From Bacteroidales bacterium (GTDB lineage Bacteria > Bacteroidota > Bacteroidia > Bacteroidales > F082), in contig JAFPUN010000005.1 in NCBI GenBank assembly GCA_017395365.1, positions 1 to 50,626 on the forward strand: a DNA stretch of 50,626 nt, read 5' to 3'. Within the stretch, counting starts at the first letter, position 1, and every line of letters begins with the position of its first letter. The notes beneath the pieces are model-generated. The model saw only the letters and a list, made by a program, of their open reading frames with translations. It was not told the origin of the DNA and did not search any database. The position numbers were made by a program, and so were the translations under genes. Shown in pieces: positions 3,487 to 44,017 of this stretch.

Positions 3487-3559
3487 ACGCGGGACTTCGG
3501 GACGCGGGACTTCGGGACGTTGTCCGTCTCGCAGTCTCGTAGTCTCGCAGTCTCGTGTC
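3487..3559. repeat. GGGACTTCGGGAC / GTCTCGCAGTCTC repeat, intergenic copy
   Basis: Left arm: two tandem GGGACTTCGGGAC units. Right arm: repeated GTCTCG(C/T)A units ending GTGTC. The arms are roughly complementary, partly through G-U pairs in RNA. It lies between the SusC stop and the SusD start. Related copies are at 33752-33838 (inside a gene) and 40338-40427. Confidence 0.8.
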
Positions 3560-24298: not shown

Positions 24299-25065
24299 GC
24301 GCGTTTCCTCCCAAACAATTTGTGGATTAATCGCGAAGGCCAGCCATAGACGATGGCCAAGAGGCACAGGATGGTATTGAGCACGCTGATGCGAAAGAAG
24401 TCCCAAAACGGGCGGAAATGGGTGACGCGGTCTTCGGGATAGAACACATTGACCTTGATGGGCACGAGGTCGGTGCCGCGCCAGGCAGAGAAGACCAAGA
24501 GCGACAGCTCGGCTTCGTAGCGTGCGCTGAAGATGCGGGGCAGCCTGTGCAAGGGATAGAGGCGGTAACCCGTCTGGGTGTCGGGCAAGTTGATGCCTGT
24601 TTGTATCTTAAACCAAAAGTTCGAGAATTTGTTGGCGAAGGTGTTCTTGCCAGGCATATTGTCCTGTTTCAGGTTGCGGCTGCCCACGATGAGGGCGCTA
24701 GGGTGTTGCTCCAAGGCCTCGACAAACAGCGGGATGTCTTCCGGGAAATGCTGTCCGTCGCTGTCGATGGTGATGGCATAGTCAAAGCCCATCTGCTTGG
24801 CTTTCTTGAAGCCTTGCTTCAAGGCATAGCCTTTGCCTCGGTTGCGGCCATAGTCGACCACGGTGATGCGCTCGCCGAATGATGCCAAAATCTCGGCAGA
24901 ATCATCGGTGCAGCCGTCGTTGACCACGATGAAATCAGTGCAATAAGTCAGCACACGTTCCACCACATCGCGCAGTGTGCCGCCGTTGTTGTAGGTGGGC
25001 ATGATGGTGCAGACTTTCATCTGCTGCATCTTGTCGCGTATCGCTATGGCATCAGACGGGTTCAT
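24295..25065 (-). CDS. Family 2 glycosyltransferase
   Basis: 256 residues. GT2 A-fold: VCTIMPTYNNGGTLRDVVERVL, FIVVNDGCTDDS, GRNRGKGYALKQGF and the metal site DSDGQH. NLPDTQTGYRLYPL is typical of dolichol-phosphate-mannose-synthase-like and polyene-cluster GT2s. A C-terminal hydrophobic stretch (VLNTILCLLAIVYGWPSRL) suggests membrane attachment. It probably adds a sugar or similar group to the lipid product. It overlaps the dehydratase gene upstream by 14 bases and the exporter downstream by 4. Confidence 0.9.
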   Translation of the reverse strand: MNPSDAIAIRDKMQQMKVCTIMPTYNNGGTLRDVVERVLTYCTDFIVVNDGCTDDSAEILASFGERITVVDYGRNRGKGYALKQGFKKAKQMGFDYAITIDSDGQHFPEDIPLFVEALEQHPSALIVGSRNLKQDNMPGKNTFANKFSNFWFKIQTGINLPDTQTGYRLYPLHRLPRIFSARYEAELSLLVFSAWRGTDLVPIKVNVFYPEDRVTHFRPFWDFFRISVLNTILCLLAIVYGWPSRLIHKLFGRKRA

Positions 25066-29913: not shown

Positions 29914-31668
29914 TCAATGGGAGATGACTTGGCGAAGCTGCTCCTTCATTTTTTCAGGCTTCAGGTTTAGTTTGTCCCGTAGTTTGCTCCGATTCTTGTC
30001 GATGGTAAATTTGCTTATTTCCAGTATCTCGGCCATCTCCTTATTGGAAAGATCAGAAAACGACAACAGGCAAACCCTTGTTTCCGTCTCGTTCAGTTCG
30101 GGATATTTCTGGCGCAAGACATTATAGACGCCAGGATACACTTTTTCTATTTCCTCCAATACTGCATCGAAGACCTTCTCCTTTCCATTCATCAGTTTAA
30201 ACACAATAGGACTCCATTCCTTATTTGGGTCTTGGGCTTGTTTTTTTGTGCGGTAGGCGGCAACAATCAAACGGAGACGCGAAGAAAGCTCTTGTTCCTG
30301 ATAGGAAGTCTTGACCGCTTCCTGAAGGTCTTTTTTCAGATTGTCAATTTGCCTTTTCATTTCCGCTTCCGCTTCCATCATTTGCTTGTGACGCAATTGC
30401 AAAAAAATAATAATGATGGTTGATGAAAGTAATAATAAACTAATAATCAAGATGATTCTATGTCGTAAGATAATTTTTCTATTCAGTTCATTTTGAAGGT
30501 TGTCGTAGTCATATTGCTGTTGGATGCGATATATGGTTTGTTCCTGCCTTTGCTGCATTACGGCATAGAGGATGTCCTCGTGTCTTTCCCTATACAACAA
30601 TGCCAATGAGTCTTCGTTTCGACTTGTAGAGAACTTATACAAAGCATCGAATACGGCCAATTGTGTTTCAAGTGTTGCTTTTGTGGTTGGAATTAAGGCT
30701 TCTGTTTTCTTGTAATAATAATTGGCAGAATCCATCTGGCCCTTGTCAAAGTATACATTGCCCAGATTCAGGTTGACTAACAACAATTCTTTTCCATCAA
30801 AACTTCGATTGCCTTCAATTTGTCTCAAACACTGTATGGTTTGGTCATATTTGCCCTGAATACGGTATAGCACAGCATGGTTGTAGAGGATTTTTCTTCT
30901 GACCTTATCAGAATGCCCTTTCTCGGCGTGAACTATACTTTGTTGAAGACATAATTCTGAACTGTCATATTGCTCCTTTATCATGAAAACTACCGCTTTG
31001 CTATTTTCTATAGAAGCCCTTTCGAGAAAATGATTCCCGATAAATCGCTCAGATTTTTGAAGTAAATCCATGGCTTCTTGCTCCATGTAATCATTATAAA
31101 GCATCTTTCCCATGCAATACTCAGCAAATGCCATGGCAAGGCTGTCTCCCGCAAGCTCTCCATATTCCTCCGCCTCCTTGAACGACCGCATGGCGGCTTC
31201 CTTCTCGTCGTAGTGCTGCTGCACGAAACCGCTGTAGAGCGCGGCGTGGGCGGCCTTGCCGTATTGCTTCTTGCGGGCATAATAGGCAGCGGCATGCTCC
31301 AACTCGGGGCTGGTGGAGAGGTTGGCGTGGTCGTCGAAGAAATCGTCATCCATGATGGGGGATATGGTAGAGACGTTTCCTGAAACGTCTCCCAATGTAT
31401 CGTTGTTTTTTGAGACGTTTCGGGAAACGTCTCTACAGCCGAAGAGGGCCTAGGCCTGCAACAAGGCCATGTCCATGCGCTCACGCTCGCTGAAGCTCGC
31501 GGGCATGCGCAGCACGCTGTCGATCAATCGAACGGCGCTGTCGGGCAAGGTATCGGCCAACCGCTCGGCACGCTTCACCATGCGGCGCGCCTCGCGCGTG
31601 GTGGCGTCGCAGGCGGTCAAGACCGCCAATAAGAATACTAATCCTATGAAAAGGTTTCGCGGTTTCAT
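29914..31668 (-). pseudogene. TPR-HTH sensor regulator interrupted by one in-frame stop
   Basis: One frame runs from ATG 31668 to the stop at 29914, broken only by TAG at 31450-31452. Before it: lipoprotein signal FLLAVLTAC and LPDSAVRLIDSVLRM...ERERMDMALLQA. After it: ALFGC, then the repeat-derived RDVSRNVSKNNDTLGDVSGN, then DLSTSPELE-type TPR repeats, one membrane helix (IILIISLLLLSSTIIIIFL), a coiled coil and a LuxR-like HTH (ETRVCLLSFSDLSNKEMAEI, FTIDKNRSKLRDKL). Relatives usually read LLQAEAL here, so GAG to TAG is likely. The downstream part could restart at Met 31395 without a signal. Probably a recent pseudogene, a sequencing error or a suppressed stop. Confidence 0.8.
31368..31436. 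repeat. GAGACGTTTC palindromic repeat inside the TPR-HTH gene
   Basis: Outer arms GTAGAGACGTTTCC (31368-31381) and its exact complement at 31423-31436 enclose two smaller palindromes (GAGACGTTTC..GAAACGTCTC). It is read in frame by the interrupted TPR-HTH gene, 14 bases downstream of the stop codon. Confidence 0.8.
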
Positions 31669-31673
31669 CACCG

Positions 31674-31704
31674 CAAAGATAGTGTTTTTTGCTTACTCAG
31701 CAAA
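31674..31704 (-). promoter_or_regulatory. Consensus promoter placed almost at the TPR-HTH start codon
   Basis: On minus: TTTG (31704-31701), 19 bases, TATCTTTG (31681-31674), then only 5 bases to ATG 31668. A transcript from here would have almost no leader. Confidence 0.65.
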
Positions 31705-32331
31705 GACTTTCTCCCCTATCGCCTCATTCAGCTTGATGTCCTCAAAGCGAATCGAGGTGACGTCGCCACCCGCATCTTTGAACTCGACACGGCTGATGCC
31801 ATTGGTCTTCTTGTCGAAACGAAACACCAACTGGCTGAACATGCGCTTCATGTCGCGACGCTTGGGGGTCATCTCGGCACGCCAAAAAGTGTCGTCGTCG
31901 TACATCACGACATCGAACACCGTGGTGTCGAACAGTTTCTTGCCCGAGGCGCTGCCCATGATGAGACCCACCATGCCTTGGTACATGCGGCCCGACTTAC
32001 CATCGAGCACCTCGGCCTGGCCGTCGGTCACCTTCACGATGCGGTCGCCATTGACCACCAAGGCGAAAGCATAGGGCATGATGTATTCCCAGCGCATCTT
32101 GTCGGGCGAGACAAAATGCATCGTGCCCTCCGCCACCGATGGCTCGGCCAGCATCGTAGAGACCTTGCTCTGCACAAAACGGCATTGCATGGTCTTCATG
32201 CCCATGGCCGCCTCCGTCAGTTGGGCCATCACTTCCTGGCTTTGCTTGTCCGACAACGGCACATCGGTTTGTGCCACCGCTACCGTCGCCATCGCAACAG
32301 CCATCACTATCATCAAGATTCTTTTCATCAT
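31693..32331 (-). CDS. LolA-like outer-membrane lipid/lipoprotein carrier
   Basis: 212 residues from ATG 32331, which overlaps the upstream stop (ATGA). Signal peptide MMKRILMIVMAVAMATVAVAQ. LolA fold motifs: MQCRFVQSKVSTMLAEPSVAEGTMHFVSPDKMRWEYIMPYAFALVVNGDRI. LolA-like proteins in aryl-polyene and flexirubin loci are thought to carry the polyene lipid across the periplasm. Last gene of the TAL-to-LolA operon. Confidence 0.9.
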   Translation of the reverse strand: MMKRILMIVMAVAMATVAVAQTDVPLSDKQSQEVMAQLTEAAMGMKTMQCRFVQSKVSTMLAEPSVAEGTMHFVSPDKMRWEYIMPYAFALVVNGDRIVKVTDGQAEVLDGKSGRMYQGMVGLIMGSASGKKLFDTTVFDVVMYDDDTFWRAEMTPKRRDMKRMFSQLVFRFDKKTNGISRVEFKDAGGDVTSIRFEDIKLNEAIGEKVFAE

Positions 32332-32690
32332 TTCATACTGATCAAGACACACCCTACCACGATAAGCACCACACCGATCCATCGGGTGAGGGGTATGCTC
32401 TCATGAAACAAAAAGAATGCCAAAAACATGCCAAAGATGAAACTTAGGCTCGACAAAGGATAAGCCTGGCTAAACTCCATCTTCTTCAGCACATAAGCCC
32501 ACAAAAGGAATGACACACTAAAGAACCCTGTCATCATGAACAGGATCCATCCATGCTCCATGGTAACATGTTTGACATACTCCCAGTTCCACTGAAACTT
32601 TCCCATCCGGTTCAAGAATAGCTTGAACATGGCTTGGCCTCCCGCTAACGAACCGGCCTGCAATAACACGAGTATTATATATTTCCACAT
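32328..32690 (-). CDS. Small EamA/SMR-like four-helix membrane transporter
   Basis: 120 residues with four hydrophobic helices (WKYIILVLLQAGSLAGGQAMF, WILFMMTGFFSVSFLLWAYV, YPLSSLSFIFGMFLAFFLF, RWIGVVLIVVGCVLISM). The SMR/EamA pattern QAYPLSSLSFI is visible. Such half-size transporters act as dimers; relatives are ArnE/F-like lipid-sugar flippases. Its place between the ketosynthase fusion and LolA suggests flipping of a lipid-linked intermediate (inference). Confidence 0.82.
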   Translation of the reverse strand: MWKYIILVLLQAGSLAGGQAMFKLFLNRMGKFQWNWEYVKHVTMEHGWILFMMTGFFSVSFLLWAYVLKKMEFSQAYPLSSLSFIFGMFLAFFLFHESIPLTRWIGVVLIVVGCVLISMK

Positions 32691-32696
32691 TTCTCT

Positions 32697-35021
32697 TTAC
32701 TTTTCCAATAAAACCATCGTATAGTCATTCCCATCGGAGCGGTTGAACAACAACAGGCAGGTAGGCCGCTTGTCGGAGACCAAGTTGGCATCGACGAAGC
32801 ACTCGGCTGGCACATGACCCACCTTGAGGCATTGCGCTGCCACATAGAAACCCAATCCCGAGGCAGTGAAGTTTTCACCAAACAGGTGTTTGTATTTCAG
32901 CAAAGGCTTGTCGCCAAAGAGGGTCTTCGTCTCGACAAGGTAAGCTTTGTCATTCTCATGGTTGCCGCTGATGCCCGTAAGGATGTAGTCGACATCGGCA
33001 AGGCTGCGCTCGGCCGACTGCAGCATGGTGGTTACGGCATCCATCAAGTCGTTCATCGTGGGCAGGTGCAGCATCTTAAGGCCGGTAAGACGACAGAGAG
33101 GTTTTGTCTCTGGATTGCTTCTTCCGTTTTCACGGAATGATGCCTCGCAATGACGAGACAATACCACCGAGACGGCCACTTCGCCGCAGCGTTCGTCGTC
33201 CTGGCCCATCACGCCGCCTTTTTTCATGATGCGGTAGAAGGTTTCCGTCATCTCGTCGTGGCAGCCCACCATAGCCGAGCCGATCTTGCCCAAGCGGAAC
33301 TGGAGCCAAGCGTCGTGCAGGGCGCTCTCAAACGAAATGCCTTTGTGTGCGTAGGTGGCGTTGTAGTTGTAGTTCTTCGTCTGGATAGCCACCAGCGAGC
33401 TGATGGTGTTGTGGGTCGACTGCATGAAATAGGTAGGTTTCAGCAGCTGCTCGCCTTCATTGGATAGGGCGTCGAGGAAGAACTCGGTGTTCTCGATGCA
33501 GCCAAAGCCTGTTCCAGTCATGATGGCATCGACGGTGTCGCAGCCAGCTTCTTTCAAAGCCTCTTTCGAGGTGGCCAAGGCGCGTTTCAGGATGCGACCC
33601 ATGCGGCGTGCCTCAATGGGAGAGACATACTCTTTGAAGCCTGGGTCGATAGAGCGCGTGAAAGGCACTTCATACTTGATGGGGTTATCCATCCACTCCT
33701 CGCTTAGCGGCTGCTGCATGGAGATCTGCTTGGCGGAGAGGACGAAAATTTGACTTCGGGACTTCGAGACTTCGGGACTTCGAGGTGTCTGATGATTCTG
33801 CTGTCCCGCAGTCTCGCAGTCCCGCAGTCCCGTAGTCGCAGAAAGCAAGAGCGACGAGTCATTACCGCCAAAGCCGAAGGCGTTGCAGAGCACATGCTTC
33901 AGCGTCTTCTTTTCGGGTTTAGCCACGGGAACGATGCCATCGTCCATGGGCTGCGACCAGTTGAGGTTGACCGGCAGGAAGCCGTGCTGCAACGCAAGGA
34001 TACAGAACACGGCCTCGATGGAACCCGAGGCGCTGGTGGTGTGGCCAGTGAAGGGCTTCGTCGACGATACGGGAGGCACCTTACCCTCGAAGAGGCGCAT
34101 CATGGCCTGGCTCTCGCTGACATCGTTGTTGGGCGTACCCGTGCCGTGTGCGTTGATGTAGTCGATGTCGGAAGGCTGCAGCCCAGCCAAGGCCAAAGCC
34201 TCTCTCATGGCGCGATAGGCGCCTTCTCCGTCGGGAGAAGAGGCGGTCTGATGGTAGGCATCGCAGGCGTTGCCATAGCCCGACAAAAGGGCCTGGGGCG
34301 CCACGCCGCGTCGTTTGGCACTCTCGGCCGACTCGAGCACGAGATAGGCAGCGCCCTCGCCAAGGTTGAGGCCATGGCGCGTGGCATCAAAGGGCCTACA
34401 AGCCTCGGTGTCGAGAATCATCAACGAGTTGAAACCGTTGAGGTGGAACTTGGTGATGCACTCGCTGCCACCTACCACCACAATGTCGGCTTCGCCGCAA
34501 CGGATCATATTGGCACCTTGAATGACCGCATTGGCGGCCGAAGAGCATGCGGTGGCCAGCGTGGTGGCAAAAGCGAACCTCCCGAAATGACCTGCCGTCA
34601 TCTCGGAACAACTGCCGCAGTCGTAAACGGAGATGTATTCCTTGTGTGCGTCACCGTTGAGGTAGTCGAGATAGTACTGCTCGCTCATGTCCATACCGCC
34701 TACGGTGGTGCCTGAAATGAAGCCCACCTTGGGCAGCATGTCGGGAGTGAGACGCGCCTCGTCCAAGGCCTCGCCCAACGCCAACATGCCCATCAGTGCG
34801 GTGCGCGTGGTGACAGCGTCTTGAGGGATGCCAAGACGCTCACGCATCTCGGCGTCGGTCAGCTTCACCTCGCCGACAGGAAACTCTTTGTGTGCCGTCT
34901 TCAGGTATTTCAACGGGCCCACGCCCGAGCGGTTGGTCAAGAGCGCCTCCAAGGTGGCGGCCTTGCCAAGACCTATTGCCGATACTACACCGGTGCCAGT
35001 TATGTAAATCGGGTCTGTCAT
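32697..35021 (-). CDS. Ketosynthase fused to chain-length-factor-like partner
   Basis: 774 residues. Residues 1-392 are a complete ketosynthase: active Cys in ATACSSAANAV (about 158), His in INAHGTGTPNND (about 290), Lys/His in STKPFTGHTTSASG (about 320) and the end NAFGFGGNDSSLLLS. Residues about 393-424 are encoded by a dispersed repeat. Residues about 425-774 are a ketosynthase-like protein without the Cys (QSTHNTISSLVAIQT at the active-site position), like a chain-length factor. Related loci normally encode these as two genes. Residues near 621-640 (SRHCEASFRENGRSN) are a second repeat insertion. It starts directly after the ACP stop. Confidence 0.9.
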   Translation of the reverse strand: MTDPIYITGTGVVSAIGLGKAATLEALLTNRSGVGPLKYLKTAHKEFPVGEVKLTDAEMRERLGIPQDAVTTRTALMGMLALGEALDEARLTPDMLPKVGFISGTTVGGMDMSEQYYLDYLNGDAHKEYISVYDCGSCSEMTAGHFGRFAFATTLATACSSAANAVIQGANMIRCGEADIVVVGGSECITKFHLNGFNSLMILDTEACRPFDATRHGLNLGEGAAYLVLESAESAKRRGVAPQALLSGYGNACDAYHQTASSPDGEGAYRAMREALALAGLQPSDIDYINAHGTGTPNNDVSESQAMMRLFEGKVPPVSSTKPFTGHTTSASGSIEAVFCILALQHGFLPVNLNWSQPMDDGIVPVAKPEKKTLKHVLCNAFGFGGNDSSLLLSATTGLRDCETAGQQNHQTPRSPEVSKSRSQIFVLSAKQISMQQPLSEEWMDNPIKYEVPFTRSIDPGFKEYVSPIEARRMGRILKRALATSKEALKEAGCDTVDAIMTGTGFGCIENTEFFLDALSNEGEQLLKPTYFMQSTHNTISSLVAIQTKNYNYNATYAHKGISFESALHDAWLQFRLGKIGSAMVGCHDEMTETFYRIMKKGGVMGQDDERCGEVAVSVVLSRHCEASFRENGRSNPETKPLCRLTGLKMLHLPTMNDLMDAVTTMLQSAERSLADVDYILTGISGNHENDKAYLVETKTLFGDKPLLKYKHLFGENFTASGLGFYVAAQCLKVGHVPAECFVDANLVSDKRPTCLLLFNRSDGNDYTMVLLEK
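33104..33161. repeat. CGTCATTGCGAGG-type compound palindrome inside the CLF-like domain
   Basis: Nested inverted repeats on minus: TTGTCTC...GAGACAA outside, ATTGC...GCAAT next, TTCCGT-gaaa-ACGGAA at the centre. The same family begins CGTCATTGCGAGG, a widespread bacterial repeat. Translated in frame as SRHCEASFRENGRSNPETK. Confidence 0.8.
33752..33838. repeat. GGGACTTCGGGAC / GTCTCGCAGTCCC repeat, coding copy
   Basis: Left arm of GACTTCGGGA units and right arm of CGCAGTC(T/C)C units. It matches the intergenic copies at 3487-3559 and 40338-40427. Here it has no stop in the read frame and encodes the linker between ketosynthase and CLF. Confidence 0.85.
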
Positions 35022-35337: not shown

Positions 35338-35922
35338 TTATAAAAGGGATGATTCGATAGTATCAAATTGTTGTTTATCAATTAAAAAGAGATGCGCCTC
35401 GAAGTGGTTCTCGTCAGTGCAGTCGAGCCAGCCACCGAGGATGCTTTGGGTCATCGTGTCGAGGAAAGCCAACTGCAATTGTTGTGCCATAATCTCCGGA
35501 TCGTTCTCAGGCAAGACAATGAATGATGTCTCACCGTAATACTTGTTACGGATGGCAATCTCGCCCGTCACGATGTTGGGCAGTGTGTAAACGAAGGCTG
35601 CAGGGCTCGGGAAGAAGTTCTCCGGCTCTTGTATCGTGGCTTGATAGGCGGTATCGGCCTGCAACGAAGCGCTTTTGTTGAAGAAGACGACAGCGCGATC
35701 CTCACGAGCCTCGAAACGGGGCTCGCCTTCAGCTTGCAAAAGCAATTCGGAGGCCACCAAACCCAACTTGCTCAAGGTGTCCATCTTGAAGAACTTGGGA
35801 TAGTCGCCCACATAGGTGCGATACAACTCGGTCAGCAGGGCTCCTCCTTGTTCAGTGTGGTCCAAGGTCTTGCCGTCGAGGATAACCTCATTGGGCGTGA
35901 TGATCACTTTATGGTTCAGCAT
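35338..35922 (-). CDS. Short ketosynthase-fragment-like protein of the polyene locus
   Basis: 194 residues. LSKLGLVASELLLQAEG and FFPSPAAFVYTLPNIVTGEIAIRNKYYGETSFIVL resemble the part of thiolase-fold ketosynthases around the nucleophile, but no Cys is at the expected place (PNIVTG). Too short to be a full enzyme. Comparable short genes sit beside ketosynthases in flexirubin-type clusters, where they may be partner subunits (from memory, not verified). Its ATG overlaps the end of the ketosynthase gene upstream. Confidence 0.7.
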   Translation of the reverse strand: MLNHKVIITPNEVILDGKTLDHTEQGGALLTELYRTYVGDYPKFFKMDTLSKLGLVASELLLQAEGEPRFEAREDRAVVFFNKSASLQADTAYQATIQEPENFFPSPAAFVYTLPNIVTGEIAIRNKYYGETSFIVLPENDPEIMAQQLQLAFLDTMTQSILGGWLDCTDENHFEAHLFLIDKQQFDTIESSLL

Positions 35923-37061
35923 GGCGCACCTCCTTTCGCGAAGAGCAAGGCTGCATTGCAGCCGCCGAAGCCCGACAAGAGCTTGATGAACATCCGCTTG
36001 TCGGTCGTTTGGTTTTGGTTGGAAAGCATCAAGGGATGTGTGACACCTAATGTCTCAAAGCCCTTGGTTGCCAATATGTTGTGTTCGTCGATGGCGTACA
36101 TGGAAAGGATGGTCTCAAGGATGCCGGCGGCACCCATGGTGTGGCCGTAGTAGCCTTTCAATCCGTTGACGGGCACCGTTGCCAGGCCAGCCCGCTCGAT
36201 GGCTACCGACTCCATCTCGTCGTTATACAAAGTCGCTGTTCCATGCGTGTTGATGAAGGCGATCTTGTCGGGGTCGATAGCTCCGATGGCATAGCGCAAG
36301 GCACGATAGCTGCCCTCGCCCACCCTTGACGGCCCGCTGATGTGGTTGGCATCGTTGCGGATGGCGCCACGGCAAGCCACCCATTCGTTGGAGTCAACGG
36401 TTTCTTTCCGTGTATAAATAATGGTTGCAGCCGCATCGCCAAGGTTCAAGCCGCAGCGGTTGGTGTCAAAGGGCTTGCAAGGCTCGGACGACAAGGCTTT
36501 GAACGACTGGAAGCCTGACACGATGAAGGCTGACTGCACATCGCAGCCCACTGTCACGACATAGTCGAAGCGGCCGCATTCCAAGTTACGCATGGCCTCA
36601 ATCTGGGCGCAAACTCCCGAGATGCAAGCGTTTGAAACCACTATTGGGGTGTTGGGATTGTGGAAGAACTCCGTCATCTGTCGGGCTGCCACACCCAACA
36701 GTACCCGCTCTTTTGGGAAGCCAGTCTCCCTCTTATCAAGGAGGAAGACATTGGCCTTGGTAGTCGAGAGGATAAACAGTACCTTGTCCGAGGTCGGGTC
36801 GATGTGGGTTTGGTATAAGGCATTGGCTGCCGATAATATGATCATCTTCTCGAAGAAGGTATAGCGCTCGTTATCCGCTAGGGCAGCAAAGGCTTGTTCC
36901 ACCTTGTCGCGCTGCATCAGCGAGGCCACAAAAGGCTCGGGCAAGTCCCAATGGCCTTCGTAGCGCCGCAGCTCCGACTTCCCGGCTTTCACCGCAGCGT
37001 AGTTCTCGGCAGTGGTCATGCCCAAAGGCGAGATGATATTATTGGCCACGCTAACGATCAT
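35916..37061 (-). CDS. Beta-ketoacyl-ACP synthase
   Basis: 381 residues from ATG 37061, which overlaps the thioesterase stop (ATGA); a longer start at 37088 is possible. Active Cys in VVSNACISGVCAQ (about 145), His in INTHGTATLYND (about 273), Lys/His in LKGYYGHTMGAAG (about 302) and the end LLSGFGGCNAALLFAKG. It condenses malonyl-ACP with the chain. One of three catalytic ketosynthase domains in the operon. Confidence 0.92.
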   Translation of the reverse strand: MIVSVANNIISPLGMTTAENYAAVKAGKSELRRYEGHWDLPEPFVASLMQRDKVEQAFAALADNERYTFFEKMIILSAANALYQTHIDPTSDKVLFILSTTKANVFLLDKRETGFPKERVLLGVAARQMTEFFHNPNTPIVVSNACISGVCAQIEAMRNLECGRFDYVVTVGCDVQSAFIVSGFQSFKALSSEPCKPFDTNRCGLNLGDAAATIIYTRKETVDSNEWVACRGAIRNDANHISGPSRVGEGSYRALRYAIGAIDPDKIAFINTHGTATLYNDEMESVAIERAGLATVPVNGLKGYYGHTMGAAGILETILSMYAIDEHNILATKGFETLGVTHPLMLSNQNQTTDKRMFIKLLSGFGGCNAALLFAKGGAPC

Positions 37062-37501
37062 AGATTTACCTCCCATCTTTGTTTCCATTTCTCGTAAAAA
37101 TCAGGACTGTTCAGCACCAGCTGATGTGTGTTTTTGTCCATGAAGACCTGTACCGAATGCCCCGTGACGTAAACCGTCTTCGTCTCTGGGTCGCGAATCT
37201 CATAGTCGAAGACGATTTTCGCCGCTTCACAGGGACGATAGACAATGTAAACCTCTGCCGTCATGCCGTAAATCAGCGGCTGTTTGTATTTGAGATTGAG
37301 CTCCACGATGGGCTCGAAATAACCTTCGTCATACATCATCAGGTACTCCAAGCCATACTTCGCGCCGAACGCCTCGCGGGCATCCTCGAGGTAGATGGCG
37401 TAGTTGCCGTGCCATACCACACCCATCGAATCCACCTCGTTGAAGCGGATGCTGATGGGTTGGGTCACCGACAATATGTTTTCGTTCTCCATGATGCTCA
37501 A
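37058..37501 (-). CDS. YbgC/4-hydroxybenzoyl-CoA thioesterase-like hotdog protein
   Basis: 147 residues. RFNEVDSMGVVWHGNYAIYLEDAREAFG has the Asp-centred motif (the usual Tyr of E-V-D-xx-G). It hydrolyses acyl-CoA or acyl-ACP thioesters. In aryl-polyene clusters a thioesterase of this type releases or proofreads chains. ATG overlaps the stop of the dehydratase gene, so production is coupled. Confidence 0.9.
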   Translation of the reverse strand: MSIMENENILSVTQPISIRFNEVDSMGVVWHGNYAIYLEDAREAFGAKYGLEYLMMYDEGYFEPIVELNLKYKQPLIYGMTAEVYIVYRPCEAAKIVFDYEIRDPETKTVYVTGHSVQVFMDKNTHQLVLNSPDFYEKWKQRWEVNL

Positions 37502-37935
37502 TCTTTTGAATCAATATCTGTCAAGGCGATTTTCATATTACACTGCGCCAGCACCTCTTCGCCACTCTTGACCATGGCTTCGACGAGGGTCACCTGAAAC
37601 ACTTCTTCCAACAGTTTGATCGTCGTCACCAAATGCTCGCCCACCTTGGGTGTGCGTGCAATGTTGAGGTTGCTGATGGAACCGATGACGCCGATTTTCA
37701 CCGTCTCGCCACTATTGAGGTTGATGTAGCCGATACGGGCGGCACAGGTCTGGGCGATGTTCTCCACCAAGCCTGCCGCCGTCATGCGGCCGTTGTCGAC
37801 AAACAGGTTGTCGGGGCGCACCTCGAGTTCGGTCATCGAAAACACCGCGTCGCTCGACACCAAGCGGTCGATCATCACGAAAGGCGGCCTTTGCGGGATC
37901 AGTTCCTTCAACGGTATGTCTTGAATCGCTCTCAT
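37498..37935 (-). CDS. ApeP-like 3-hydroxyacyl-ACP dehydratase
   Basis: 145 residues from ATG 37935 (ATGA overlap). LIPQRPPFVMIDRLV is the typical N-terminal motif of the ApeP/FabZ-like hotdog family, followed by MTAAGLVENIAQTCAARIGY. Likely partner of the dehydratase at 25052-25429. Confidence 0.87.
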   Translation of the reverse strand: MRAIQDIPLKELIPQRPPFVMIDRLVSSDAVFSMTELEVRPDNLFVDNGRMTAAGLVENIAQTCAARIGYINLNSGETVKIGVIGSISNLNIARTPKVGEHLVTTIKLLEEVFQVTLVEAMVKSGEEVLAQCNMKIALTDIDSKD

Positions 37936-38825
37936 TGTTTCCAAAAATCAAAATAGTTGAACCATTGCGTCGGGTAGCGTCGCACGATGTCTTCGAGTTG
38001 CGTGGCGAAGGCTTGTGCAAGTTGTTGGATTTGCTCGCGTTTGTTGGCTGCACGGTCGCATTGTATGGCGCGCACAAAGGCGTGATAGGTCCTCATGCCC
38101 TCTTTCATCACGAAGACGGCCAGCACCTCCACTCCCTTCTGAACGGCCAAGGCAAAGCCACCCATGGGGAAACGCGCCGTCGCGCCAAAAAACTGGCATT
38201 CGACCGACTTCTGTGAGCCGAAGATACGGTCGCCAGGCATGCTGACAATCTCTCCGTTTTCGAGCGCCGCATTCAAGGCAAACAGATGCGAGAGGTCGGG
38301 CTTCACGAGAATCATGCTCATGTTGTTTTGCGACAGCAACCGTTGGCGGTTTTCCATCACCGTGGCCGTCTCGCCAGCAAACACCAAAGCATTGAATCTC
38401 TTACTTTTAGGCTTCAACGAATAGCCTGCTATCTCATAGTTGCCGATATGGCTGCTCAATAACATGAAACCTTCCGGATGGTTCTCCAACTCGTCCATCA
38501 ACTCTTGACCCTCTTTCAGGAAATGGTATTTCTTGCCTGCATACACGCCAAAACGGTCCAAAATGATCTGGCCGAAGCGGAAGTGGTTGGCATAGACATA
38601 CCAAAACGCTTTCCATGGTCCCAATCCGATACGCTTGCGGAAGAACTGGTACATGGCTTGATAGCCTTTCCTGCTGAACAGCATATAGAAAGGCACCACC
38701 ATGGCCATGATGCCGTAGGGCAGCCACAATGGTGACACACGGAACAACGCGATGAGGCTACGCTGCATCCACGGTAATCCGTCGGTCTTGCCTGACCATT
38801 CGTTATGTTGCAAGGTGTCGGCCAT
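37932..38825 (-). CDS. LpxL/HtrB-like lysolipid acyltransferase
   Basis: 297 residues. N-terminal membrane helix (LWLPYGIMAMVVPFYMLFS), then the HX4E-like catalytic motif in LLSSHIGNYEIAGY (about 120), and KGVEVLAVFVMKEG. LpxL-type enzymes move an acyl chain from ACP to a lipid at the inner membrane face. Members of this family are regular parts of aryl-polyene loci and are thought to attach the polyene to its lipid anchor. Seven bases from the upstream ACP. Confidence 0.88.
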   Translation of the reverse strand: MADTLQHNEWSGKTDGLPWMQRSLIALFRVSPLWLPYGIMAMVVPFYMLFSRKGYQAMYQFFRKRIGLGPWKAFWYVYANHFRFGQIILDRFGVYAGKKYHFLKEGQELMDELENHPEGFMLLSSHIGNYEIAGYSLKPKSKRFNALVFAGETATVMENRQRLLSQNNMSMILVKPDLSHLFALNAALENGEIVSMPGDRIFGSQKSVECQFFGATARFPMGGFALAVQKGVEVLAVFVMKEGMRTYHAFVRAIQCDRAANKREQIQQLAQAFATQLEDIVRRYPTQWFNYFDFWKQ

Positions 38826-38832
38826 GCTTGGG

Positions 38833-39075
38833 TTAGGCGGTCTTTTGCTCGATGTAGTCGCAGAACTGGCTGAATGTCTTCACATTGGCCATTTCCTCTG
38901 TCTTGATCTTGAAGCCAAACTTCTTCTCGACGATGACCACGATGTCGACGAAATCGAGGCTGTCGATGCCGATGTCTTCTTTCAGACGGGCTTCCGGCTG
39001 GATCTTTTCTTCGTCAATCTCAAGGTCCTCGATGAGGAATTCCTTGACTTTTGCTTCTATTTCTTGTCTGTCCAT
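38833..39075 (-). CDS. Acyl carrier protein (second)
   Basis: 80 residues. The phosphopantetheine Ser lies in DIGIDSLDFVDIVVIVEKKFG (about residue 38). Sequence clearly differs from the ACP at 35022-35279, so the two may carry starter and elongating chain separately (inference). Confidence 0.92.
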   Translation of the reverse strand: MDRQEIEAKVKEFLIEDLEIDEEKIQPEARLKEDIGIDSLDFVDIVVIVEKKFGFKIKTEEMANVKTFSQFCDYIEQKTA

Positions 39076-39111
39076 AAATTGTTATTTCAAGGTTTTACAT
39101 TATTCAAATTT

Positions 39112-39215
39112 GGCTACTGGCTGCTGGCTACTGGCTATTGGCAGCTTTAACCGAGGCTTGAACTTTTCAGCTTTTTGTGAAGCTGCCAGAAGCCAAAAGC
39201 CAGAGGCCAGAAGCC
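39112..39215. repeat. GGCTACTGGCT / AGCCAGAAGCC inverted repeat
   Basis: Repeated TGGCTACTGGCTGC units (39112-39147) face repeated AGAAGCCAAAAGCCAG units (39180-39215), forming a long imperfect stem in the 153-base gap between O-methyltransferase and ACP. Confidence 0.75.
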
Positions 39216-39228
39216 TTTTTATCATTCA

Positions 39229-40323
39229 TCATTTCTTACATACCATGATGCTATGGCCGAGGCCGAGGGCGTCGTGGATGGTCTCCACTTCGAGGCCGGC
39301 TTTTTTGACCAATTGGGCCATGTCACCACTGTGGTACATCTTGCTGTTGCCATTGGCCAAGGCGGTGAAATACAGGCTCGTCATCGTGAGGGCGAAGGCC
39401 GCGGAAGAATAGCGTTGGCGGTCCCAGAAGGTCTCCATGATGCAGAGGCGGCTGTCCTTGTCCATGATCTTGGCGGCACGACTCACGATGCTCATGATCT
39501 CGTCCTCGCCAAAGCAGTCGAGGAACTGGCTCATCCAGATGATGTCGTAGTGCTTGTCGGTCGGGAACGGCTGGCTGTCGTCCAAGAGGTTGATGCCATA
39601 GCCGTCGATGCGGTCGGCGCCCTTCTTTCCTTTAGTGAACTCGCGCATCATCTCGAGTTGTTGCGGCAGGTCCATGATGGTCACCTTGACATTCTCGTCG
39701 TAGTCGACGCAGCGCAAAGCCCAGCGACCCGTGTTGCCGCCCACATCCAAAACGGTCTTGGGGTGATCGCCAAAGAGCAGCTGCAAGGCCTGGTCAAAGG
39801 AGTGGTCGGAATAATAATGGTCGAAACCGAACCAGCTCTTCTGCACTTGTGGCGGCAACTGCGAGAGGCCTTCGTAGATAGTCGGCCAGCTGCCGAAATG
39901 CTCCAAACCAGCGGGACGGCCTTCCTTCAACGCTTCTTCGAGATGGAACCAACCTTCATAGTTGACATCGTGGTTGAAGTCGATGTTGACGCGGATGGCG
40001 GGGTCGGTGAGCAGGAACCAACCCGTCTTCGACAAGGTGAAACGGTCGGTTTCGGTATTCACCAGCACGAGGCCGATGCAGAGCGAGCCTTCCATCAGCA
40101 CCTTCACCGCGTAGGGCGAGAGACCTGTCTTTTCGGCAATCTCGGCTTGGGTGAGGCCTTGTTCGTTGTCGCGCAGCATGTCCAAGATGCCAAACTTGAT
40201 CATCAGACGGCCCACCTGGAAGATGATGGGGCCAAAAGCGATGAAATAGGCTAGTTCTTGGGCTTCGCCGGCTTTTTTATGTTCTTTGGTATAAGCCTTT
40301 TCAAGGGCAGGGAATAATTCCAT
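39229..40323 (-). CDS. SAM-dependent O-methyltransferase
   Basis: 364 residues. N-terminal winged-helix dimerisation part (GLTQAEIAEKTGLSPYAVKVLMEG), then the class I SAM motif KTVLDVGGNTGRWAL (about 190) and IIWMSQFLDCFGEDEIMSIV. The plan matches plant-type or hydroxyneurosporene-like O-methyltransferases. In aryl-polyene loci a methyltransferase decorates the aryl head group. It could methylate the phenol derived from coumarate. Confidence 0.9.
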   Translation of the reverse strand: MELFPALEKAYTKEHKKAGEAQELAYFIAFGPIIFQVGRLMIKFGILDMLRDNEQGLTQAEIAEKTGLSPYAVKVLMEGSLCIGLVLVNTETDRFTLSKTGWFLLTDPAIRVNIDFNHDVNYEGWFHLEEALKEGRPAGLEHFGSWPTIYEGLSQLPPQVQKSWFGFDHYYSDHSFDQALQLLFGDHPKTVLDVGGNTGRWALRCVDYDENVKVTIMDLPQQLEMMREFTKGKKGADRIDGYGINLLDDSQPFPTDKHYDIIWMSQFLDCFGEDEIMSIVSRAAKIMDKDSRLCIMETFWDRQRYSSAAFALTMTSLYFTALANGNSKMYHSGDMAQLVKKAGLEVETIHDALGLGHSIMVCKK

Positions 40324-40337
40324 AGATGTGTTTTTTT

Positions 40338-40427
40338 GACACGGGACTTCGGGACACGGGACTTCGGGACTTTCAATTACATTGATTGAAAAGTCTCGTA
40401 GTCTCGCGTCTCACAGTCTCGCGTCTT
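40338..40427. repeat. GGGACTTCGGGAC / GTCTCGTAGTCTC repeat, second intergenic copy
   Basis: Two tandem CGGGACTTCGGGAC units, a spacer with TTTCAATTAC / TGATTGAAAA, then GTCTCG(C/T) units. Fills most of the gap between ketosynthase and methyltransferase genes. Confidence 0.8.
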
Positions 40428-40445: not shown

Positions 40446-41675
40446 TTATCTTATCTTTTTAATTACCAATGCACTATTTGTCCCACCAAAGCCGAAAGAA
40501 TTGGACAGGATAGTGTTTAAAGTCTTGTTCGTTGTCACATTGACGATGTTGAGGCCTTCCGAATATTCATCGGGATGCTCGAAGTTGATGTTGGGCGCGA
40601 TGAAGCCACCGTGCATCATGAGGATGCAGTAGACGACTTCGCTGGCGCCAGCCATCCAGCACTCGTGACCCGTCATTGACTTGGTTGACGAAATAGGTGT
40701 TTTTGTAACACCAAACATATTCTTCAGCGCCATGGCTTCAAACATGTCGCCTTGGGGCGTCGAGGTGGCGTGGGCGTTCACATAGTCGATGTCTTCGGCT
40801 TTCACACCTGCCTCTTGCATGGCGCGGGTCATGGCTCGCTGGCAACCTTCCTCGCTGGGTTGTGAGATGTGACTCTCGCCATTGGAAGAGAAGCCATAGC
40901 CACACACCTCGGCCAGAATCGTCGCCCCACGGGCCACAGCGTGGTCATAGTCCTCAAGCACCAATGCTGCAGCGCCACCGCTGGGCACGAGGCCGTCGCG
41001 GTCGCGGTCGAAGGGACGCGAGGCCTTGGTAGGCTCGTCGACACGGGTCGAGAAGGCACTGATGCCATCGAAGCTACCCATGGAGAGGTAGTTGGTCTCT
41101 TGGGCACCGCCGCACAGCACCACATCCTGCAAGCCATTGCGGATGAGCAAAGCGCCCAAGCCGATGGCATGCGAACCACTGGCGCAGGCCGCGCTGATGG
41201 TCATGTTGATGCCTTTCAGGTGGAAGATGGTGGAGAGGTTCATCGTCACGGTGGAATTCATCGACTGGAAGATGGCTGCCGACCCCACCAAAGTGGTGTC
41301 TCTCTTCTCCATCGTGACCTCGTGCGACTCGATGACCGCCTTGGCCGACGAGTCGTTGCCAAACAGCACGCCGACTTCATTTTCGAGCAGATAGGCATCG
41401 TCGATACCCGCCTGTTGAAAAGCCTCTATTGTGGCCATATAGGCATATTCGCCTTCCTCAGCGAGATACATGCGGAGTTTACGGTCGAGTTTACCCTTCA
41501 GTTGGGGTTTCTCCACGATGCCCGTCAAAGGGGAACGATAGCCGTATTCGGTGCGTATCGGGTCGATGCCGATGCCCGAACGGCCTTCGCGCAAGGCGGC
41601 TTCAACCTCTTCTTTGTTCTTTCCCAAGCAGGACCAGATGCCCATGCCTGTGATGACGACTCTTCTATGATTCAT
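40446..41675 (-). CDS. FabF-type beta-ketoacyl-ACP synthase
   Basis: 409 residues. MNHRRVVITGMGIWSCLG at the start; active Cys in ISAACASGSHAIG (about 162), His in VNAHATSTPQGD (about 299), Lys/His in SSTKSMTGHECWMAGA (about 333), end LSNSFGFGGTNSALVIKK. Full-length catalytic enzyme. The Lys-Ser-Met-Thr-Gly-His motif is usual for FabF and aryl-polyene ketosynthases. Confidence 0.93.
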   Translation of the reverse strand: MNHRRVVITGMGIWSCLGKNKEEVEAALREGRSGIGIDPIRTEYGYRSPLTGIVEKPQLKGKLDRKLRMYLAEEGEYAYMATIEAFQQAGIDDAYLLENEVGVLFGNDSSAKAVIESHEVTMEKRDTTLVGSAAIFQSMNSTVTMNLSTIFHLKGINMTISAACASGSHAIGLGALLIRNGLQDVVLCGGAQETNYLSMGSFDGISAFSTRVDEPTKASRPFDRDRDGLVPSGGAAALVLEDYDHAVARGATILAEVCGYGFSSNGESHISQPSEEGCQRAMTRAMQEAGVKAEDIDYVNAHATSTPQGDMFEAMALKNMFGVTKTPISSTKSMTGHECWMAGASEVVYCILMMHGGFIAPNINFEHPDEYSEGLNIVNVTTNKTLNTILSNSFGFGGTNSALVIKKIR

Positions 41676-41694
41676 AGTTTGATGCTTTCGAGTC

Positions 41695-41739
41695 GGCCCT
41701 TCGACTGGCTCAGGGACCTAGGTCGTTGAGCCAGTCGAA
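41695..41739. repeat. CCTTCGACTGGCTCAGG palindrome, intergenic copy
   Basis: Arms TTCGACTGGCTCA (41700-41712) and TGAGCCAGTCGAA (41727-41739) are exact complements around a 14-base loop. Its first half is nearly identical to 22337-22360 inside the exporter gene. Confidence 0.85.
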
Positions 41740-41750
41740 ACGCCGGTATT

Positions 41751-42482
41751 TTATGTATAAAGCCCTCCGTTAATAGAAATGACCTGTCCTGTGATGTATG
41801 ACGATTCGTCGGATGCCAAAAAACTAGTCAAAGCGGCCACTTCCTCGGGCTTGCCGAAGCGCCCCAGCGGGATGAGCTTTTTCAGTTCAGCCTCATCGAG
41901 TTCCTTGGTCATATCGGTGGCAATGAACCCAGGCGCGATGGCGTTGACCGTCACCTTGCGGGCTGCCACTTCCTGTGCGAGAGCCTTGGTAGCTCCGATG
42001 AGAGCAGCTTTAGCGGCGGAATAGTTGGTCTGCCCCGGCAGGCCTTTCAATCCCGACAGCGAAGCCATGTTGATGATGCGTCCGTTGCGGTGGGTCATCA
42101 TGTCCTTCAGCAGACGGCGTGTGATATAGAAAAAGCCGTTCAAGGTGGTATCCAAGACCTTGCTCCACTGCTCTTCCTGCATGAAGATCATGAGGTTGTC
42201 CTGACGGATGCCCGCATTGTTGACCAACACGGAGATGTAGTCATCGGGGTGGCTGGCCGACCACGACTCCAAAGCCGTCTCGATGGCTTGTGGGTCGGCG
42301 ACATTGAAGGGAAGCAGTTCGCCAGTGCCGCCTGCTTCTTGCACTTGCCTTAAAGTGTCTTCAGCGGCTTCTTTGTTTGATTGATAGTTGATGATAACGG
42401 CAAAACTGTCGTTGGCCAGGCGCAAGGCGATGGCTTTTCCCAAGCCTCGTGAGGCACCGGTGATAAGGGCGTATTTCGTCAT
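41751..42482 (-). CDS. fabG: 3-oxoacyl-ACP reductase
   Basis: 243 residues. Short-chain dehydrogenase with GASRGLGKA for NADPH, NNAGIRQDN, catalytic Ser in MASLSGLKG and YSAAKAALIG (Tyr-X3-Lys), then PGFIATDM. It reduces the 3-keto group after each condensation. ATG overlaps the TAL stop (ATGA). Confidence 0.94.
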   Translation of the reverse strand: MTKYALITGASRGLGKAIALRLANDSFAVIINYQSNKEAAEDTLRQVQEAGGTGELLPFNVADPQAIETALESWSASHPDDYISVLVNNAGIRQDNLMIFMQEEQWSKVLDTTLNGFFYITRRLLKDMMTHRNGRIINMASLSGLKGLPGQTNYSAAKAALIGATKALAQEVAARKVTVNAIAPGFIATDMTKELDEAELKKLIPLGRFGKPEEVAALTSFLASDESSYITGQVISINGGLYT

Positions 42483-44017
42483 TTCAATTTCAAGGGGTTG
42501 GTTTTCAAATAGTTCTCAACAGCGGCGATTTCCTTGTAGAACGGCGTGTCTTCGATAAAGAGCGGAATGATCTCCCTCACTTTGTCATACAACTTGCGCG
42601 ATGTGGGCGCCAGCTTGTCGGCAATCTTCAAACAGTCGGTGGCCTGTGCCAAGGCGATGTATTGGATGGCCATCACCTGGAAGCAGTTCTCCACCACTTG
42701 CTTGCAGAGCAAGGCACTGTTGGTGCCCATGCTGACGATGTCCTGATTGTCGTTGTTGTTGGGGATGCTGTGCACATAGTTGGGCATGGCCAGGGTCTGG
42801 CATTCGGCGGTCGTCGAGGTGGCCGTGAACTGACAGGCTTGCATGCCGTAGTTCAGTCCCAGTGTGCCGAGGTTGAGGAAAGGCGGCAGGATGCCGTTGA
42901 TACGGTCGTGGAACAGGTAGTTGAGTTGACGCTCGGCCGTCATGCAGAGACGCACCAAGGCAATCTTCACCTTGTCTTCCTCCAACGAGATGTAGTCGCC
43001 GTGGAAGTTGCCGCCGTGATAGACATACTCCGTCTCGGGGTCGACAATGGGGTTGTCGCAGGCCGAGTTGAGTTCGTCTTCAAGGATTTGGCGCGTAAAG
43101 TTCAAAGTGTCGTAGATGGGACCTAAAATCTGCGGCGTGCAGCGCAGCGAATAATAGGCCTGCACCTTGTGCTCAAAGACCTTCACGTCGGAGTGGCCAT
43201 AGTCGTAGAGTTCGTGGGCGCGTTTCTTGAGACATTGCGAGCCTTCTGAGAGTTCGCGCAAACGACGGGCGATCTCTTGTTGTCCCTCGTGGCGACGGCA
43301 GTCATTCTCGCCTTTCGACATATAGTCATCGAAAGAAGAAGCGATCTCATTCATCCAAACGGCAGCCAAGGTAGCCCAGTCGAGCAAGGTCTCGGCATTA
43401 TGCTGGTTGACCACGCTGATGCCGGTCATCACCGAAGTGCCGTTGGTGATGGAGAGACCTTCGCGGATGTGCATCTTGAGCGGAGTGAGGCCGTTTTCCT
43501 TCATCACCTCTGCGGTGGGTCGCCATTGACCTTGGTAATGCACTTCGCCTTCGCCGATGAGGCAGAGAGCGATGTGGGCCAACTGGACCAAGTCGCCGCT
43601 GGCACCTACGCTACCATGTTGGGGAATGAAAGGAAATATCTCACGGTTGATGAATTCAACGAGCAGTTTCACCACATCGGTGTGCACGCCCGAACGGCAT
43701 TGCAGCACCGTGCCAAGGCGGGCAATCATGGCCGACTTCACATAGATGTCGCCCAAAGGCTCGCCGGCACCCGTGGAGTGGCTACGGATGATATTATATT
43801 GAAGGTCATTGAGATACTTGTCGTCGACACGCCATTGTGCCATAGGGCCAAAACCCGTATTGATGCCATAAATGACTTTGTCGGAAGCAAATCTTTCCAA
43901 AAAACGGTAACATGCCTCCACACGGTCCATCCACGCCTCCGAAACCTGTATCTTCTCATTGGAATACAGCACTTTCTCTACTTCTTCCAGCGTGATTCTG
44001 TCATTGAATGTAATCAT
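42479..44017 (-). CDS. Aromatic amino acid ammonia-lyase, tyrosine ammonia-lyase-like
   Basis: 512 residues. The MIO cofactor triad Ala-Ser-Gly is in HGSVGASGDLVQLAHIAL (about 140). YGINTGFGPMAQWRVDD, NIIRSHSTGAGEP, YHGGNFHGDYISLEEDK and HSIPNNNDNQDIVSMGTNSA closely resemble the Flavobacterium johnsoniae TAL as I recall it, more than HutH. It would turn tyrosine into p-coumarate, the aryl starter of flexirubin-type polyenes. First gene of the main operon with its own promoter. A histidase role is less likely, since no hut genes are near. Confidence 0.9.
   Translation of the reverse strand: MITFNDRITLEEVEKVLYSNEKIQVSEAWMDRVEACYRFLERFASDKVIYGINTGFGPMAQWRVDDKYLNDLQYNIIRSHSTGAGEPLGDIYVKSAMIARLGTVLQCRSGVHTDVVKLLVEFINREIFPFIPQHGSVGASGDLVQLAHIALCLIGEGEVHYQGQWRPTAEVMKENGLTPLKMHIREGLSITNGTSVMTGISVVNQHNAETLLDWATLAAVWMNEIASSFDDYMSKGENDCRRHEGQQEIARRLRELSEGSQCLKKRAHELYDYGHSDVKVFEHKVQAYYSLRCTPQILGPIYDTLNFTRQILEDELNSACDNPIVDPETEYVYHGGNFHGDYISLEEDKVKIALVRLCMTAERQLNYLFHDRINGILPPFLNLGTLGLNYGMQACQFTATSTTAECQTLAMPNYVHSIPNNNDNQDIVSMGTNSALLCKQVVENCFQVMAIQYIALAQATDCLKIADKLAPTSRKLYDKVREIIPLFIEDTPFYKEIAAVENYLKTNPLKLK

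Follow-up and report, generated by a model that had tools for sequence, protein, structure and literature searches.

Intergenic repeats may have joined ketosynthase and chain-length factor genes several times over in Bacteroidales

Results

The fused gene and the repeat at its junction

The window analysed here comprises positions 1–50,626 of contig JAFPUN010000005.1 of an uncultured gut Bacteroidales bacterium (assembly GCA_017395365.1). On its minus strand lies an open reading frame (ORF) of 774 residues without internal stop, in which a ketosynthase (KS) is followed by a chain-length-factor-like (CLF) partner (Table 1). The linker between both halves is a copy of a dispersed hairpin repeat, which we call type G. 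Because relatives carry the same fused protein with other dispersed repeats as the joint, we propose that intergenic repeats may have joined the KS and the CLF gene several times over.

Pfam assigns residues 3–354 to ketoacyl-synt/Ketoacyl-synt_C and finds PF13723, a second match of ketosynthase fold, at residues 465–626. The residues C159, H292 and H327 are invariant in the KS part of all 44 aligned fused proteins; they correspond to the catalytic Cys-His-His of the KS family. Cysteine, histidine and histidine at the three corresponding columns are found in none of the 11 aligned CLF parts, although these columns are uncertain because KS and CLF align weakly (72 of 328 positions identical, blastp E 0.003). 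A KS with invariant Cys-His-His and a ketosynthase-fold partner which, as far as this weak alignment goes, is devoid of these residues correspond to a KS–CLF pair of the type II polyketide synthase kind. At 351 amino acids, the CLF part is only slightly shorter than the KS part (394 amino acids). A PADLOC run on the fused protein returned nothing. The original prediction that the protein joins two normally separate genes is in agreement with the single open ORF, with its two ketosynthase-fold domains and with the separate genes of 12 relatives (see below).

The linker copy of the repeat has two opposed arms made of 8-nt units and is predicted to fold as a hairpin (−41 kcal/mol as RNA). The 8-nt units recur in two intergenic copies in the window; the copies resemble one another without being identical. 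The pattern GRGACNNCGRGACNNCGRGAC has five matches in the window, which lie at 3526–3554 and in the linker and are absent from the copy at 40338, versus none in 100 shuffles. In the 2.1-Mb genome the type G pattern gives 30 matches at 16 distinct places and the reversed pattern none. When 12 other type G places, found with a separate pattern, were examined, 11 turned out to be intergenic and one to lie in a doubtful ORF of 124 amino acids. The linker copy is open in each of the three minus-strand frames. The copy at 40338 has stops in five of the six frames and is open in one, so that openness is not a property of every type G copy. Thus, three statements of the original prediction hold: the junction is a copy of the repeat seen at both intergenic positions, the repeat extends from the end of the KS to the start of the CLF, and it has no stop in the reading frame.

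Table 1. Features of the window that are discussed in the text (strand: –, minus strand;., no strand assigned)
Feature	Position	Strand	Basis
Fused KS–CLF gene, 774 aa	32697..35021	–	ORF, Pfam, alignment
KS part, residues 1–394	33840..35021	–	Pfam, alignment
Linker, residues 395–423, peptide ATTGLRDCETAGQQNHQTPRSPEVSKSRS	33753..33839	–	
Type G dispersed hairpin repeat forming the linker	33752..33837	.	
CLF-like part, residues 424–774 and stop	32697..33752	–	PF13723 match, alignment
Second dispersed element, in frame in CLF loop, peptide RHCEASFRENGRSNPE	33112..33154	–	
Type G intergenic copy	3487..3559	.	
Type G intergenic copy, between the O-methyltransferase and KS genes of the cluster	40338..40427	.	
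LolA-like gene	31693..32382	–	
Second ketosynthase-like gene	35916..37088	–	
Lipid A acyltransferase-like gene	37932..38825	–	
O-methyltransferase	39229..40323	–	
FabB/FabF-like ketosynthase	40446..41675	–	
Type P palindrome, intergenic, inside the cluster	41691..41745	.	
Ketoreductase	41751..42482	–	
Aromatic amino acid lyase	42479..44017	–	

Fused and unfused junctions in relatives

The genus was represented by 99 genomes, among them that of the window, and 43 of these had a strong match. The 43 were sorted by hand: 27 carry an intact fusion, one (G139) has a broken CLF frame, nine have two genes, one locus is cut by a contig end and five hold distant homologues (two fused, three unfused). 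The intact fusion is also present in a collection of named records, which by title are mostly rumen and gut Bacteroidales assemblies. Three of these records (L147, L152 and L154) and the nine genus genomes with two genes make up the unfused set of 12. In L062, L064 and L065 no CLF was found downstream of the KS. L036/L134 (broken CLF) and L030/L076 (contig end) were excluded from the trees and linker counts. In G139 (L036; the named record L134 looks alike) the KS part is followed by a type C linker (see below), and the CLF frame is broken after the junction.

Two junction geometries are observed. In all 12 unfused loci the distance from the last KS codon to the compared CLF codon is 26 nt. 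The two genes are in different frames there, with an overlap of 1 or 4 nt between the KS stop and the CLF ATG. In all 27 fusions the linker measures 39–153 nt, is a multiple of three and contains no stop. The first methionine of the CLF part lies at varying offsets in the fusions (4, 11 or 20); thus, as far as ATG starts are concerned, no start near the CLF N-terminus is conserved in all of them. The comparison of homologous loci suggested in the original prediction has therefore revealed the two separate genes in 12 relatives.

Three repeat families in the linkers of the genus

None of the 26 other fused genomes of the genus has a linker identical to that of the window. Type G is found in L001 (the window) and L015, with a half arm in L002, L003, L031, L023 and L024. 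A second family, type P (GGTCCCTGAGCCTGTCGAAGGGCC and its reverse), forms the linkers of L004–L013, L016, L017, L019, L032 and L034 and is decayed in L018 and L020. The third family, type C (CGTCATTGCGGGCTTGACCCGCAATC and variants), is present in L002, L003, L031, L014, L033, L023, L024 and L035. When scored against coding windows of the same genes (400 null windows, uncorrected p ≤ 0.005), 27 of 27 fused linkers, versus 0 of 12 unfused spacers, score as an element of type G, P or C; for the weakest of them, L020, one null window reaches the score as well. Hence neither a fused gene without a repeat (27 genes) nor an unfused spacer with one (12 spacers) was seen. In the window's genome type P has 34 and type C 26 matches (at most two mismatches), and the reversed controls have none. 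Three clade B genomes, G063, G048 and G138 (L015, L014 and L034), have kept repeat-derived linkers, yet no strict pattern match of these repeats was found in them.

Within the window's subclade (n = 10) six linkers are of type P and three consist of a G half arm and C. Close relatives with the fusion and a different linker, which the original prediction had named as evidence against itself, do therefore occur. Of its claim that a non-coding element created the fusion, one part stands, namely that a dispersed and normally non-coding repeat constitutes the linker; type G need not have first fused the genes, as close relatives have the fusion with other linkers. Since the linkers differ among fused relatives, we rejected type G as the sole maker of the fusion.

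The fused genes are not monophyletic

A nucleotide maximum likelihood tree was calculated from KS and CLF without linkers (27 fused and 12 unfused genes, unpartitioned GTR model). On this tree the fused genes are interspersed with unfused ones. The window's subclade A1 has the unfused L021 as its sister, the remaining clade A fusions lie outside, and the unfused L039/L040 and L025/L028 are placed among the fusions of clade B. Monophyly of all fused genes is rejected (delta lnL 647, p 2e-51 in the approximately unbiased (AU) test), and so is monophyly of the fused genes of clade A, the window's clade (delta lnL 168, AU p 6e-78). Provided that fusion is irreversible, the best tree would imply five fusions in the genus, in A1, in the rest of A, in L016/L034, in L014, and in L015 with L017–L020; the nodes behind this count are partly weak (clade B bootstrap 42–73). 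The P arms within clade B are arranged forward–reverse in L016 and L034 and reverse–forward in L017 and L019, which argues for separate fusion events there.

Of the 43 strong-match genomes 40 were searched for rpoB (G026, G034 and G039 were left out). Eight genomes had no match and four had split or cut genes, and the rpoB tree comprises 28 full-length sequences. The rpoB nucleotide tree supports a position of unfused species in between the fused species of clade B, also between those with opposite P arm arrangements.

Other in-frame repeats in proteins of the genome

The fused gene of the window contains a second dispersed element, in frame within a loop of the CLF part (Table 1). A flexible pattern for this element has seven matches in its own genome including itself, and the other six differ in the middle part; a form of the same length is listed in G002 and G121. 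By eye, the alignment shows this loop enlarged in 19 of 19 clade A fusions, many of them with visible P or C peptides, and short in all eight clade B fusions and all 12 unfused genes. The clade B fusions have a repeat at the junction in eight of eight cases.

In the window's genome we examined 24 places of type P (34 pattern matches), 11 of type C (26 pattern matches) and 12 of type G (30 pattern matches). Elements located at least 90 nt inside an ORF of at least 80 amino acids were found in 13 of 24 cases for P and in 4 of 11 for C, although a small number of these ORFs may not be genuine. Ten element-bearing ORFs (nine P, one C) were submitted to Pfam, and all ten belong to a family. A solute-binding protein (L185:158–1840, minus strand) has a clean insertion of 34 residues at its P element compared with a solved relative; two other element-bearing proteins, the dihydroorotase-like L193 and L170, had no clean gap in the same kind of comparison. 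As judged from the sequence, in-frame tolerance of repeats appears general in the window's genome. One type P arm was noted in frame (GPSTGSGT) at 22336–22364 in ORF 20714–24406 (minus strand), which codes for an MMPL/acyltransferase exporter-like protein of the same region.

Fusions in other genera

Outside the genus we counted 55 distinct fused junctions and 23 unfused or unclear ones. Twelve of the 55 linkers were chosen by eye as repeat-like and searched in their own genomes, and nine of these 12 have further copies among the matches listed; as the linkers were selected by eye, this proportion is not a rate. At least dozens of matches are listed for L133 and L122, and the linker itself stands alone among the matches listed for L118, L141 and L053. 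By eye, the repeats belong to families other than G, P and C.

Repeat load and mobility

The window's genome has five matches to a Y1 transposase. Genomes with more G, P and C repeats also tend to have more Y1 genes (Spearman 0.75 over 37 genomes, without correction for kinship). In 16 Y1 regions from eight genomes no flanking elements were found, and G/C-like matches occur in one of these regions, more than 1.8 kb from the Y1 start; the Y1 region L228 is cut by a contig end and a different ORF was taken there. Y1 transposases of the REP-associated tyrosine transposase (RAYT) kind, lying beside the elements, are therefore not supported as their movers. The strict repeat load separates the fused genomes of clade A from the unfused ones (p 4e-5, uncorrected for kinship). 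It fails for clade B with strict and relaxed patterns (see Discussion), and we therefore rejected repeat load as a predictor of fusion in general.

The surrounding gene cluster

The fused gene lies in a cluster that is presumably of the aryl-polyene/flexirubin-like class. Clusters of this class comprise a ketoreductase, further KS, an aromatic starter enzyme and acyl and methyl transferases, and this set is found near the fused gene (Table 1) together with a small EamA-like protein. A further repeat family is present in the cluster: an inverted repeat of tandem TGGCT-like units at 39112–39215, in the space from 38825 to 39229. At 31367–31436, at the 5′ end of the TTG-started ORF 29914–31395 (minus strand), lies a nearly perfect inverted repeat of 25 nt that begins with GTAGAGACG; this palindrome looks GTAG-ended. 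An Rfam scan of the window returned nothing.

Discussion

We suggest that stop-poor palindromic repeats have probably replaced the stop–start overlap between KS and CLF repeatedly and in frame, that they fused the pair in doing so, and that they kept turning over afterwards. The ancestral state would have been a pair of genes in which the KS stop overlaps the CLF start; because of this overlap the unfused pair is likely to be translationally coupled. Short palindromic intergenic repeats would have landed in the spacer and replaced part of it, and the coupling would be lost with any repeat that did not leave the CLF in frame with the KS. Retained would be those insertions that are free of stops and keep the CLF in frame, since others would not make both partners, and the result would be a single-chain heterodimer with a tether of 13–51 residues. 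Insertion and fusion may thus have been one event, with the frame filtered by selection, and we infer that a single chain is made in which the linker is an unstructured tether. In solved relatives the KS and the CLF pair as a heterodimer (PMC8358021), so that such a tether may be easily tolerated and may help assembly. This kind of fusion would have occurred several times in the genus and also in other genera with other repeat families. The tether would afterwards have gained, lost and swapped repeats, and the type G linker of the window would be one such state.

Several observations weigh against this scenario and some of them point to the reverse order, in which the genes were fused by small deletions or frameshifts, perhaps several times, and the permissive surface linker later took up and swapped dispersed repeats. 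We consider this order rather unlikely, though it deserves serious attention. The linker could have been invaded after the fusion, which is conceivable because the clade A repeats also entered the CLF loop, where no fusion took place. Many of the 55 linkers outside the genus do not look repeat-like by eye but look like ordinary spacers rich in Ala, Ser, Pro and Thr, so that fusion without a repeat is possible. The linker type even differs between the rpoB nucleotide sisters G041 (P) and G028 (G and C). On the other hand, the genus has not a single repeat-free fused gene (0 of 27), and clade B has repeats at all of its junctions with the CLF loop short throughout. The element consensus was itself derived in part from the linkers that were scored with it; the independent support therefore comes from the dispersion of the elements. 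Repeat load gives no help in clade B: the fused genomes have 0–4 strict matches versus 0–41 in the unfused ones (p 1.0), and a relaxed P pattern yields 6–17 in the fused and 7–20 in eight of nine unfused genomes, with 68 in G044, at 1–8 for the reversed controls. The number of separate events is likewise less firm in this clade, as monophyly of its fused genes is rejected by the AU test (0.022) but not by the Shimodaira–Hasegawa test (0.30) and resolution within clade B is poor on the rpoB protein tree.

Another reading is that the genus has inherited a single ancestral fusion and that L021, L022, L025/L028, L039/L040 and others reverted to two genes by recombination with unfused alleles. This appears improbable to us. 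In its favour, L021 groups with A1 in the KS–CLF tree and its genome G037 lies outside clade A on both rpoB trees, so that the KS–CLF genes of G037 were probably transferred between species, unless the bin is mixed. Over the 30 nt nearest to the junction, other unfused genes resemble L021 more closely (0.81 and 0.73) than A1 does (0.68 and 0.67). This could reflect a change in the fused forms at the arrival of the repeat or the exchange of a short tract, and L021 may have been restored locally by recombination. The same P arrangement in clade A and in L016/L034 would also fit a single fusion. Nevertheless, in 150-nt windows L021 is A1-like on both sides of the junction without any mosaic. The fused forms lack the spacer, so that excision of the repeat alone would not restore it, and the overlapping 26-nt geometry is identical in 12 of 12 unfused loci. 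The strong rejection of all-fused monophyly and the opposite P arrangements within clade B are also difficult to reconcile with one fusion. That the fusion arose from assembly or frameshift errors is hardly credible. Many of the genomes are metagenome-assembled and the relative G139 does have a broken CLF frame; yet the fusion is intact in 27 of the 99 genus genomes, with every linker in frame over the whole range of lengths, and the named records agree. The assembly frameshift that the original prediction had named as a refutation is thus unlikely.

If repeats did fuse the genes, the consequences may reach beyond this locus. As a rule a gene fusion is recognized by its outcome, and what the joint was made of is seldom seen. 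Here the joint is still recognizable as a dispersed repeat, close relatives have kept the two separate genes and the event has apparently happened more than once, all of which makes the origin of linkers, and the role of so-called junk repeats in multidomain enzymes, directly testable. As a tentative and somewhat doubtful generalization, repeats may serve as ready-made stop-poor linkers that turn coupled gene pairs into single-chain enzymes, with many parallel cases from unrelated families at the Bacteroidales KS–CLF junction, and this might be a general route of fusion in repeat-rich bacteria. The naturally varied KS–CLF tethers may also serve enzyme engineering.

Comparison with known systems

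The nearest enzymatic counterpart is ApeO–ApeC of aryl polyene synthesis, a KS–CLF heterodimer of a KS and a partner of ketosynthase fold (PMC8358021). The likeness consists in the KS with its ketosynthase-fold partner and in a cluster with further KS and ketoreductase genes. In contrast to the two separate chains of ApeO–ApeC, our protein is encoded by one ORF of 774 amino acids, and its CLF part has nearly the length of a KS. Membership as ApeO–ApeC was dropped, as the CLF here is not half-sized.

With regard to the repeats, repetitive extragenic palindromes (REPs) tagged with GTAG or CGTC have been described within genes, even two in one gene, and the portion of the description that we saw contains no joining of two genes by a REP (PMC3733652). 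Type C linkers of the relatives resemble CGTC-tagged REPs in holding CGTCATTGCGGGC and a short palindrome, and the high copy number in the window's genome (26 type C and 30 type G pattern matches in G000) is also REP-like. Unlike these REPs, the type G linker of the window and type P have, by reading, no CGTC or GTAG end, and a repeat-flanked Y1 (RAYT) gene, as would be expected for CGTC-tagged REPs, was not found in the 16 regions.

Rickettsia palindromic elements (RPEs) and other in-frame miniature inverted-repeat transposable elements (MITEs) are comparable in behaviour: they are short dispersed palindromes, open in a frame, that lie in frame in conserved genes and are apparently tolerated there, and the cases described in the passages covered comprise insertion into single genes, fusion of a repeat ORF to another ORF or domain, and new ORFs (PMC10969869, PMC2229807). 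Our elements share with the RPEs the in-frame position inside conserved genes, as seen in the ten submitted ORFs with a Pfam family. In the literature that we covered, with subscription journals mostly outside it, we met neither a fused KS–CLF nor a case of two genes joined by a repeat in this manner. In-frame palindromic repeats inside genes are already known; recurrent joining of genes by unrelated repeats did not turn up in this literature. It is here that our case departs from the RPE and MITE examples, a comparison made by description: in gut Bacteroidales, repeats of unrelated families sit at one and the same junction and appear to join two formerly separate genes.
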